Source of the DNA: Gemmataceae bacterium
Lineage (GTDB): Bacteria; Planctomycetota; Planctomycetia; Gemmatales; Gemmataceae
Direction: 5' to 3'
Assembly (NCBI GenBank): GCA_025055215.1
Contig: JANWYO010000217.1
Coordinates: forward strand, 1 to 33,350
DNA: 33,350 bases
Each line of letters opens with the position of its first letter. Positions within the stretch are counted from its first letter, which is position 1. Below the pieces are notes generated by a model. That model searched no databases, had not been told where the DNA came from, and saw only the letters and a program-made list of their open reading frames with translations. This document shows, piece by piece, positions 3,973 through 26,107 of the stretch. The translations under genes were made by a program, and so were the position numbers.

Positions 3973-4099
3973 CTCAGGCCTCGGCCTCAAGCCGGGAAAC
4001 CCTGCCAACCCACACATCATTCACGGTTGCCGGCAGACCCTGGCACGGCAGCAGACCCGACTGGCAGCGGCAAGCAAACGAAGACCAGCGACAAAAGTG

Positions 4100-4265
4100 T
4101 TCCTGTGGATTTTGGCGAGGTCAGGCGCAGCGGCGGAGAGGGATTCATCGGTTCGCGCTCGCACGCGGCTGAAAGACGCCTGCCGCGCCCCCAGCGAGCG
4201 CGAAACGATCCATCGTGAACGCGAAACGAGGAATCAGCCAGGGCTGGGGAAAGACCGCCACCCGG
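4100..4265 (+). repeat. Dispersed intergenic element, copy A
   Basis: First of three diverged copies found in this window; the others are at 15850-16030 and 25896-26066, both on the minus strand. Conserved block 1 lies at 4132-4153 (begins GGCGGAGAGGGATT) and matches copy C at 21 of 22 positions. Block 2 lies at about 4194-4260 (contains GAGCGCGAAACGAT and AACGAGGAATC) and aligns closely with copy B. The sequence ACGATCCATCGT within block 2 is a short inverted repeat. It sits in the 508-bp gap 3913-4420; the only other thing I see in that gap is the hairpin at 3942. Block 2 points toward the PilZ gene. A short frame starting GTG 4215 crosses the element but is not supported as a gene. Confidence 0.75.
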
Positions 4266-4420
4266 AGTGCTCACCCCCCAACCACAGCTGCATCGACCGG
4301 AAAGGTGAAGTTGACGGCCGAAAAACAAGAAGCTACATTCTCGCCCACACCGCAGACGATGCTGATCCTCGGCCCAACGTCGCACGCCTCGGCCGTATGC
4401 CGCAGGGCAAGGAGGCCATG

Positions 4421-4828
4421 ATGTCATACACGCTGGACGTGCCGCCCGCTCCTGAGACTAGTGCCCCGACAGAACGACGCCGTTGGCCACGCTTCGAAAG
4501 TGGCTTGCGGTGCTGGTGTCGCTCCGTGGCCATGAGCCGGGTAGGCGGCGCATGGCCCGCGCGGGTGGGTGATTTGTCGGTTGGCGGCATAAGCCTGGTC
4601 CTCAGCCGCCGGTTCGAACCGGGGACCCTCTTGGCGGTCGAGCTGCGCAGTTCGACGGGAGAGCACCTACGCACCGTCGTCGTCCGCGTGGTTCGAGTGG
4701 TCCCACAACCCGTCGGAGCCTGGTGTCTCGGCTGCCAATGCTCCCAACCGCTCAGCCCTGATGATGTAGGCCCCTTCCTGACACCACCATCGGCGATGAC
4801 ATGCGAGGCACCCCCACTGGCGGCCTGA
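4421..4828 (+). CDS. PilZ domain protein
   Basis: 135-residue single-domain protein. It has both halves of the c-di-GMP binding signature: RxxxR as RRWPR (Arg20 to Arg24) and the D/NxSxxG motif as DLSVGG (Asp51, Ser53, Gly55), followed by the beta-barrel strand pattern VVVRVVRVVPQPVGAWCLGCQC. It should therefore bind c-di-GMP and act as a cytoplasmic effector. The start at 4421 is chosen because GGAGG lies 5 nt upstream; an ATG at 4418 is possible, and the long open frame extending further upstream is the intergenic repeat region read through. The next gene, 37 bp downstream, is a Flp pilin, hinting at control of pili or surface behaviour. Confidence 0.9.
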   Translation: MSYTLDVPPAPETSAPTERRRWPRFESGLRCWCRSVAMSRVGGAWPARVGDLSVGGISLVLSRRFEPGTLLAVELRSSTGEHLRTVVVRVVRVVPQPVGAWCLGCQCSQPLSPDDVGPFLTPPSAMTCEAPPLAA

Positions 4829-14850: not shown

Positions 14851-15087
14851 TCACGGCGGCGGGAGCAGCGCTTCCCGGTCCAGCTCCTGCCGCAGGGCCT
14901 CGGCCTTTTGCCGGGCGTTTGTTTCGGTGATCTGCTCGGCGCTGACGGGGACCTGCGGCGACGACGGTTTGGTGGCGGTCGGCGCGGGGGGCGGCGCCGC
15001 GGCGGCCGGGGCCGGCCGCCGCGGCAGCCCGCTGCAGCCCACACTGATCCCGCTCGCCACCACTACCAACCACGTCACCTGCTTCAT
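14851..15087 (-). CDS. Small putative lipoprotein, Pro/Ala-rich
   Basis: 78 residues. The N-terminus MKQVTWLVVVASGISVGCSG looks like a lipoprotein signal ending at Cys18, although the lipobox (SVGC) is not ideal. Next come an Ala/Pro-rich linker (PRRPAPAAAAPPPAP) and a short helical stretch (AEQITETNARQKAEALRQELDREAL) that may form a coiled coil. Its ATG overlaps the stop of the secreted protein gene by ATGA, so the two products are probably made together. I do not recognise a family; a periplasmic structural or scaffold role is only a guess. Confidence 0.6.
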   Translation of the reverse strand: MKQVTWLVVVASGISVGCSGLPRRPAPAAAAPPPAPTATKPSSPQVPVSAEQITETNARQKAEALRQELDREALLPPP

Positions 15088-15677
15088 GGCTGGCCCTCAC
15101 CCCCTGCCGTCCGTCGCGTGCCTTCCCTGGCGGTCGCCGGCCCCCGGGGTTGCAACTTGGCCGAGCTGGGCGTCGCCTTCGGCGCCAGATGACGGTCGAG
15201 CGTCTCCTCGTCCGAGTCGAATCGGGCGGAACTGCACGGCAAATGGGCGATTCGCTGGGCGTAGGTGGCACGGGCGCGCTCGTCGAGCTGTTCCACCATT
15301 CGCTGTAAATCGTCGTCCTGAGTCTGGCAGGCGATTTCCGCCAGGCGGTCACAGACCTTCAAGCGGCGGAGCAGCGCCTCTTGTTCCCGGAGGCGTGTGG
15401 CCACGGCCTCGTCGGTCTTGCTCGGGGGAGCGTCAGTGCCCGTGGCCGTGGGGCGAACCGGCTCCCGTCCGGTGGCCGGCGATGGCGCGGGCGGGGTGCG
15501 TCCCGAGGGTCGGTCGGCTGCCAGGAGCTTTTTGACCAATCCGGCCTGGGGATTGCGGCTGCCGAAGGCCGGCGGCGGCCCCTTGCCGCGGAACGCCGGC
15601 TCGCCGCCGCTTGCCGTCGTCACTCCCAGACTCAAACACGCCGCCACGGACCAACTCCAGTGCTTATCCCAGACCAT
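15084..15677 (-). CDS. Secreted protein of unknown function
   Basis: 197 residues, unrecognised. ATG 15677 has GGAGG 5 nt upstream, which rejects the much longer open frame running into the repeat region. Residues 1-25 (VWDKHWSWSVAACLSLGVTTASG) look like a Sec signal peptide. A disordered Pro/Ser/Thr section follows, then a charged helical region (about 105-150: TRLREQEALLRRLKVCDRLAEI...) resembling a coiled coil, then a basic tail. It is coupled by a 4-nt overlap to the small lipoprotein gene downstream. Because the lipoprotein also has a helical segment, the two could interact, but this is inference. Confidence 0.6.
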   Translation of the reverse strand: MVWDKHWSWSVAACLSLGVTTASGGEPAFRGKGPPPAFGSRNPQAGLVKKLLAADRPSGRTPPAPSPATGREPVRPTATGTDAPPSKTDEAVATRLREQEALLRRLKVCDRLAEIACQTQDDDLQRMVEQLDERARATYAQRIAHLPCSSARFDSDEETLDRHLAPKATPSSAKLQPRGPATAREGTRRTAGGEGQP

Positions 15678-15849
15678 AACCCCCTCCGCGCGCCTTGCTA
15701 CGGCCCAGCCAAATACCCGATCGCGGACAACGACGTCGGCGAGCGGCCGTATGCCAAAGCCGGTCGGTCCTGTCCAGATCAGTCTGAGTGCATCTGTGGG
15801 GTAAGGCGGGGGTTGAGCGCACCAGACGGCGGTTGGCTCCCCCTCCGCC

Positions 15850-16030
15850 CATTCCTCTTTTGCCGCATCATAATTCATCGATTTGCGTTCGCTCGGCATC
15901 CGGCGAGCGCGAATTGATGAATCCTGAACGCTTCCTGCGTGGCCAACGCGCGCCGCTCACCCTCGCGTGAGCCTGAACCGATCAATCCCTCTCCGCCACT
16001 AGCCCTTCGCCCCGCCGAGACCCGCAGGGA
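15850..16030 (-). repeat. Dispersed intergenic element, copy C
   Basis: On the minus strand, 15976-15997 matches copy A block 1 at 21 of 22 positions, and the block 2 motif is recognisable but diverged (GAGCGAACGCAAATCGAT, then AGAGGAAT at about 15850). The space between blocks differs from copy A. It points toward the secreted-protein gene at 15677, about 170 bp away. The containing gap 15678-16386 (709 bp) shows no supported gene; its remaining 350 bp on the right look non-coding on both strands apart from promoter-like sequence before 16387. Confidence 0.7.
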
Positions 16031-16386
16031 CACCCCCCAGTCTTGCCTGATTTCAACTCCGCATCTGGTTGCAACAACCGTCCGACCTGAAAGGGCCCTC
16101 GCAACGTTCGAGGACCTTGCCCGGCAACCCCTCGGAGAGCGCGCCCCTTCGGGACCGACCAGGCTTGCGAGGGTGGATGGCGACCCTGCCCGGGCATCTG
16201 CGAAAGACCGGCCGAGCTAAAAAGCCCCGGAAGGCTTGTCAGGCCGGGAGAGCTGCGGGTGCGGGGCGGCCCGCGGGAGCGCGCCGCGCCGCCGAAGCGC
16301 TCTTGTCCCTCCCCCGTGGGGCCGTGGTATGATGCCCGCCGCTGGGAAAACATGGGGTTTTCCCTGGTTTGCCAAGGAGGCGCGAC

Positions 16387-25379: not shown

Positions 25380-25760
25380 TCAACGAGACATCGCCTCGAA
25401 CAATCGTAGCACCGGCCCCGTCATGGTCACATGGAACAGACACAAGACCAGGCAACAACCGGCAAAGACCAGGGTGTTGACCCACGTCGCGGAGACCTGA
25501 TCGCGTGCCAGCCATTGCGCGAGGAGCAAGCCCAGGCCAATGGCCAACGCGGCGACGTAGAGGGCGGTGGTCGGGATGGCCAGAAACAGCTCCGTCGTCC
25601 AAGGGAGCAAGAGGTTGAAGTCCTCGAAAACCCGAGCGAATGCCGCCCGCTCCGACGGGACGGTAACGGCAAGGTAGAGGAGCGAAAGGAGGGCGAAGAG
25701 CAAAGTCCCCCTGCGCATCCACCTGCTCCAACGCATGCTGGCGGCGAGCCGATCGCTCAT
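25380..25760 (-). CDS. Small membrane protein, first gene of the GT-C-like run
   Basis: 126 residues with three hydrophobic helices (RGTLLFALLSLLYLAV near 17-32; ELFLAIPTTALYVAALAIGLGLLLAQWLA near 57-85; WVNTLVFAGCCLVLCLFHV near 93-111). ATG 25760 is chosen for GGAGG 7 nt upstream; the longer open frame runs into dispersed repeat copy B. It is not recognised. It lies 24 bp ahead of the paralogous pair and may form a small accessory subunit. Confidence 0.7.
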   Translation of the reverse strand: MSDRLAASMRWSRWMRRGTLLFALLSLLYLAVTVPSERAAFARVFEDFNLLLPWTTELFLAIPTTALYVAALAIGLGLLLAQWLARDQVSATWVNTLVFAGCCLVLCLFHVTMTGPVLRLFEAMSR

Positions 25761-25895
25761 CCGTGTTCCTCCCTTTTCTCCCAGTCTACCTGGAAGGCCG
25801 GTGGCGTTCAAGGATCGCCCAACGACGCCCTCGCGTCGGCGGGCTGCGGGACGCCGGCCGGGTGCTGAGGAGCAACTATCGCTTGGGGCGGGGTG

Positions 25896-26066
25896 GAGCG
25901 CTTCGAGCGGTGGTTTTTCCCAGTCCCGCCGATTCCTCGTTTTCGGTCCATGATCGGTCGTTTCGCGCTCCCTCCGTAGCCAGCCTGCGTCTCCCATCCT
26001 CGCGCCAGCGCAAACCGAACAAACCCCTCCGCCGCTGCGCCCTCGCCCCGCCAGAATCCAGGGGGA
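25896..26066 (-). repeat. Dispersed intergenic element, copy B
   Basis: On the minus strand, block 1 is at 26013-26033 (GGCGGAGGGG...TTCGGTT) and block 2 at about 25911-25970 (GAGCGCGAAACGA...AAACGAGGAATC), aligned to copy A with roughly 80% identity by eye. It points toward the small membrane gene at 25760, about 135 bp away, and away from the Cys-rich gene at 26224. The gap 25761-26223 (463 bp) otherwise holds only a 14-bp direct repeat (26069 and 26094). Confidence 0.72.
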
Positions 26067-26068
26067 CG

Positions 26069-26107
26069 ACGGATGCCGAATTCCAGAGAGACAACGGATG
26101 CCGAATT
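26069..26107. repeat. 14-bp direct repeat with 25-bp period
   Basis: ACGGATGCCGAATT occurs at 26069-26082 and 26094-26107, right at the upstream edge of dispersed copy B. It could be a target-site trace or small tandem duplication. Confidence 0.6.

Follow-up and report, generated by a model that had tools for sequence, protein, structure and literature searches.

A high-copy, gene-less element of a Gemmataceae genome, placed at a fixed distance from predicted promoters

Three intergenic copies in the window, the whole 33,350-nucleotide stretch analysed here, belong to a dispersed family of gene-less elements of about 206 bp. The window is the entire contig C52 of a MAG of 4.58 Mb (347 contigs, 96% complete). 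For one protein of the window the best named relative, 72% identical, belongs to a Gemmataceae bacterium, which makes this taxon plausible. There is good support for a transposon that was inserted at a fixed position with respect to predicted promoters; the element is very probably a promoter-targeted MITE, moved most likely by a prokaryotic Mutator-like transposase. In bacteria, transposition aimed at promoters has been described for ISs, transposons and ICEs; in the open-access literature we found no report of it for a high-copy element that carries no gene.

Copies, ends and target-site duplications

With copy A of the window as the DNA query, at least 40 scored copies and 255 first-look candidates, 72–83% identical, were found in the same genome (best E-value 1e-27, copy A itself excluded), and the 206-base consensus returned 278 candidates there. 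This confirms a dispersed element rather than a chance resemblance. A profile search of 1.33 Mb of sampled genome gave 76 loci, 65 of which score above 60 bits; extrapolated from this sample, the family, for which an earlier note on this DNA had proposed a genome-wide search, has 170–260 copies, about 1% of the 4.58-Mb genome. Members are on average 80% identical to the consensus, and the family is therefore old; many copies are truncated. The full element has no copy in 59 relatives, and an exact-pattern search of genome_contigs and viral_contigs, from which the own record was perhaps excluded, gave no match. Several contigs, those at L067, L072, L080 and L083, end in or near a copy of the element; the repeat may thus be one cause of breaks in the assembly, from which a multi-copy autonomous element could be missing.

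The consensus reads 5'-GGGTGTCCCTCT...AGGTGCACCC-3', with the termini listed as GGGTGTCCCTCT and GGGTGCACCTAT, and conservation across 46 oriented full-length copies has a sharp boundary at both ends (5'-GGGTGTCCCTCTGGATTT ... CGATAGGTGCACCC-3'). The terminal inverted repeats are imperfect (GGGTGtcCCT and GGGTGcaCCT), being identical at 8/10 positions and at 17/24 over the first 24 bases.

Comparison of the flanks over duplication lengths k of 2–15 singles out 8 bp, with an excess identity of 0.258 (z 11.45; the runner-up, 7 bp, has z 3.25). The flanks of 23 hold-out copies, full-length, lying outside the sampled stretches and picked in the searches above because they resemble copy A or the consensus (some were in the first alignment, none was used in finding the duplication length or the promoter distance), are 58% identical at 8 bp against 29% in mismatched pairs (z 8.75). 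Of the interpretations first offered, a degraded mobile element is the one that fits, with inverted ends, 8-bp duplications in two independent sets and many decayed copies.

The profile search recovers all three window copies, with limits wider than those first noted (Table 1). Copy B had seemed less clear because its core (15786-16035) contains an extra inverted REP arm of about 43 bp; additional core units are present in other copies too, so the core expands or contracts. The sequence AGACTG of the target-site duplication is still kept in copy B. The flanks of copy C, TCGGCATC and CAGCACCC, contain no recognisable target-site duplication. At 26060-26105 of the window, a tandem duplication of about 29 bp (GGAATTCGGCATCCGT...) of the junction contains the 5' end of copy C.

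Table 1. Features of the three window copies and their surroundings
Feature	Position	Strand	Basis or remark
Copy A of the putative MITE	4095..4295	+	Profile match 150 bits; exact ends set by the conservation boundary over 46 copies
Copy A, left target-site duplication AGCGACAA	4087..4094	+	5/8 match to the right one
Copy A, right target-site duplication ACCGGAAA	4296..4303	+
Predicted host-promoter -35 box TTGACG beside copy A	4311..4316	+	Starts 15 bp past the end of copy A; sequence and family-wide phasing
Predicted -10 box TACATT beside copy A	4334..4339	+	17 bp after the -35 box; sequence
PilZ-domain protein gene downstream of copy A, 135 aa	4421..4828	+	Pfam PF07238, E 1.3e-11
Copy A, REP-like core unit, left arm GATTCATCGGTTCGCGCTC	4142..4160	+	Inverted repeat; motif shared with RAYT-flanking REPs
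Copy A, REP-like core unit, first inverted partner GAGCGCGAAACGATCCATC	4196..4214	+	Sequence, inverted repeat
Copy A, REP-like core unit, second inverted partner GAACGCGAAACGAGGAATC	4217..4235	+	Inverted repeat
Copy B of the putative MITE, with the extra REP arm	15786..16035	-	Two profile segments, together 135 bits
Copy B, 5' target-site duplication AGACTGGG	16036..16043	-	6/8 match
Copy B, 3' target-site duplication AGACTGAT	15778..15785	-
Gene downstream of copy B, 197 aa, signal-peptide-like start	15084..15677	-	Longer frame: no Pfam match
Copy C of the putative MITE	25868..26071	-	Profile match 157 bits; sequence
Gene downstream of copy C, 126 aa, hydrophobic segments	25380..25760	-	No Pfam match

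Measured to the start codons at 4421, 15677 and 25760, the distances from copies A, B and C to the next gene are 125, 108 and 107 nt, near the range of about 115–175 bp given before. The gap lengths depend on the start codons chosen and therefore differ in part from the earlier values of 508, 709 and 463 bp: the first is unchanged, and the other two become about 769 and 740 bp with re-called starts. Genes were called with a simple custom script, not a standard caller, and by these calls the copies are intergenic: of the 65 strong loci only 2 are inside a gene, possibly through miscalled start sites.

Position relative to predicted promoters

A predicted sigma70-like -35 box starts 14–17 bp, typically 15, outside one end of the element; its modal position is 17 nt past the end of the profile, equal to 15 nt past the true end. 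All promoters considered here are predictions from the sigma70 consensus. Outside either end, the mean promoter score is highest at 15 nt (z 5.9 and 4.8), and agreement with the promoter consensus at 8/12 positions or more is seen at 24–25% of ends versus 0.8% of control windows. At a threshold of at least 7/12, the 46 discovery copies divide into 17 with a promoter at the right end only, 15 at the left only, 2 at both and 12 at neither; the corresponding figures for the 23 hold-out copies are 6, 8, 0 and 9. Pooled over both sets, 48 of the 69 full-length copies have a promoter next to them, against 8.5% by chance (p 2e-35): it is at the right end in 23, at the left in 23 and at both in 2, and 21 have none. 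The signal is nearly always confined to one end of a copy (mutual exclusion, Fisher p 1.6e-4). In copy L056, TTGACA-16-TAGAAT begins at 15 bp from the element, after a perfect CCACGGCC repeat.

About 30% of copies, B and C included, have no predicted promoter at the expected place. Within the window the textbook arrangement is found in copy A only; the good predicted promoter of copy C lies farther off, some 56 nt past the element, and copy B has only a weak one at another spacing.

The distance from the element end to the promoter is constant at 15 nt, while the distance to the start codon ranges from about 55 to 200 nt. Compared with random insertion into gaps, divergent gaps are favoured (32 copies, 20 expected) and convergent gaps avoided (2 copies, 8 expected); right ends that face a start codon lie 80–160 nt from it in 24 of 47 cases, where 6.9 would be expected. 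Both the gap preference and the start-codon distance would follow from the constant promoter spacing. The 15-nt linker between the end and the -35 box, which contains the duplication, is not conserved; the promoter is therefore the host's and older than the insertion.

In the window, all three copies have the same orientation toward the next gene, as described earlier. Genome-wide this does not hold, since in tandem gaps 14 copies are oriented toward the start codon and 10 away from it. A strict orientation toward the downstream gene was a first impression that was lost with more copies and with promoters at both ends; the equal frequency of promoters at either end likewise argues against the regulator site of fixed orientation that the earlier note had considered.

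Since every copy flags a likely sigma70 promoter at a constant offset, the family offers a map of promoters in an organism for which a metagenome assembly is the only source, as well as a natural series of upstream-region replacements in which the effects of insertion on expression could be tested. The placement, about 15 bases in front of promoters, avoids breaking genes yet adjoins the sequences that would drive them.

Comparison with promoter-targeting mobile elements

The arrangement probably arose when a transposase supplied in trans recognised the GGGTG...CACCC ends and inserted the element with an 8-bp duplication, typically 15 bp upstream of a sigma70 -35 box and with either end toward the promoter. 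The likeliest enzyme would be a p-MULT DDE transposase, like that of TnGBS/ISLre2 or of the ISKra4 members that target promoters, which would contact RNA polymerase or promoter DNA; the copies have decayed since. Promoter targeting of this kind would explain the intergenic position of the copies, their preference for divergent and avoidance of convergent gaps, and the distance of about 100 nt to start codons. We consider the p-MULT assignment reasonably likely; the class of the enzyme, targeting through RNA polymerase, the present immobility of the family and any effect on expression are what we infer from the pattern.

Correia/NEMIS, MITEAba12 and the Coxiella MITEs resemble the element in being short, gene-less, high-copy and intergenic, with inverted ends; we know of no fixed distance to host promoters in any of them. 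Closer counterparts are found among the p-MULT elements. For TnGBS and ISLre2 (p-MULT 3) the insertion point is 15-17 bp upstream of the -35 box in sigmaA promoters, part of the ISKra4 group (p-MULT 4) inserts 13-17 bp from the promoter with either end, and p-MULT duplications measure 8-9 bp (PMC3942029). An independent survey singled out ISLre2 and ISKra4 for their unusual distance of 50-250 bp from genes (PMC9208149). The element shares with TnGBS/ISLre2 the spacing upstream of the -35 box and the 8-bp duplication, and it has two marks of the promoter-targeting p-MULT group: a -35 box 13-17 bp downstream of the insertion, and repeats of 8 or 9 bp. In contrast, TnGBS and ISLre2 are ICEs or ISs with a transposase and have the right end toward the promoter, whereas the element is about 206 bp long and gene-less, occurs in both orientations and resides in a planctomycete. 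The inverted repeats of p-MULT elements are 18-39 bp long and end in C; the element has the terminal C and, in its old copies, 17/24 identity over 24 bases. For p-MULT 4 elements that insert both ways, 83-100% is reported, more than this complementarity of the consensus ends. A circular intermediate and mobilisation by a Mutator-like DDE transposase are further traits of promoter-targeting p-MULT elements.

Genes of ISKra4 type are present in 55 of the 95 genomes of the bacterial family, and the ISKra4 ends GGG(T/C)GTAACC partly resemble GGGTGTCCCT of the element. Most of the relatives' elements found with the ISKra4 profile agree with the element ends at 6-7 of the first 10 bases, and they have 9-bp duplications where these are readable; none of the eight examined has a promoter at 13-17 bp. 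The ISKra4-profile elements L228-L238 of relatives have ends of the form GGG(T/C)GTAACC..., with perfect 9-bp target repeats in L228, L230 and L234.

No Y1, ISKra4 or IS256 transposase was detected in the own genome, which is fragmented and 96% complete; in the search for ISLre2 even the controls gave no match. Inspection of the partial copies in the sample for an autonomous form revealed no transposase within any of them, and one that seemed to lie in a gene is a truncated copy at the beginning of a large ORF that encodes no transposase. With no such transposase found in a 96%-complete genome and a mean identity of 80%, the family seems to be an old orphan.

A MITE of another IS family that makes 8-bp duplications, such as IS1595, ISL3 or IS66, with a promoter preference that reflects the structure of the target DNA, seems to us rather unlikely. 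In its favour, such duplications are not exclusive to Mutator-like elements, and no p-MULT partner was found. Against it, among the papers found, only p-MULT 3 and some of p-MULT 4 are described as keeping a fixed 15-bp distance to the -35 box (PMC3942029).

The REP-like core

The central inverted repeat of the element matches the REP units that flank RAYT genes in relatives. Among 398 genomes of the class, only four have its core motif, GCGCGAAACGATSAATC, in multiple copies, namely the own genome (39 copies), G331 (45), G029 (28) and G017 (4); a control with the reversed pattern gave a single match in one genome. In the three relatives the motif is a dispersed REP, single or in inverted pairs. 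RAYT-like genes at L105, L109, L158, L159 and L160 of G331, G017 and G029 have inverted copies of GCGCGAAACGATSAATC on both sides, as in a REP/RAYT system, and a RAYT-like protein matches the NCBIfam family REP_Tyr_transpos with an E-value of 7e-13, under the curated cut-off.

In the simplest history a REP pair would have become the interior of the MITE before the MITE spread, so that the inverted repeat was already in the middle of the element. Tentatively, the element may be a hybrid selfish element, in which the REP pair of a RAYT system was captured by the MITE of another, promoter-seeking transposase. If so, some 200 promoter-side insertions could have replaced the native upstream regions, and hence the regulation, of several percent of genes. 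A REP core within a MITE ties together two kinds of repeat that are normally handled apart.

The tight spacing to the -35 box and the two tandem core units of 21-22 bp on one helical face, which could resemble activator sites, might also suggest a cis-regulatory module, an activator or UP-like array phased with the promoter and kept by selection across a large regulon. Such a module is very unlikely, given the 8-bp duplications, the sharp transposon-like ends, the promoter at either end and the many truncated copies; elsewhere, moreover, the core occurs as REP units without the promoter frame.

We also regard it as highly improbable that the whole element is a REPIN, a REP pair spread by a single-strand Y1 (HUH) transposase, in spite of the RAYT-flanking motif in G017, G331 and G029 and the sub-threshold match to REP_Tyr_transpos. 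The element has a 206-bp frame that the relatives' REPs lack, this frame carries 8-bp duplications, and no RAYT gene was detected in the own genome. Y1 transposition makes no target duplications. The REPIN was rejected as the whole element on the duplications and the missing RAYT; a REP/RAYT origin accounts for the core, not for the element.

A structured leader RNA or riboswitch-like element, another early suggestion to which the strong hairpin potential (consensus MFE -98 kcal/mol) and the position upstream of genes would be suited, is scarcely credible, as covariation is no better than in shuffles (compensatory changes 40 versus 43.8, broken pairs 708 versus 715), Rfam gives no match, and where an adjoining promoter was found, its -35 box is downstream of the element. 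The palindrome of the putative MITE is an ancestral feature, now in decay and not under selection for pairing.

Of the core motifs in the own genome, 47 lie inside the element and 7 outside it. Although RAYT was undetected there, stand-alone REP-like motifs are seen at L076:2942, L118:3961, L119:9110, L138 (joined contig C282) 32913, L185:1795 and 1877, and L201:728.
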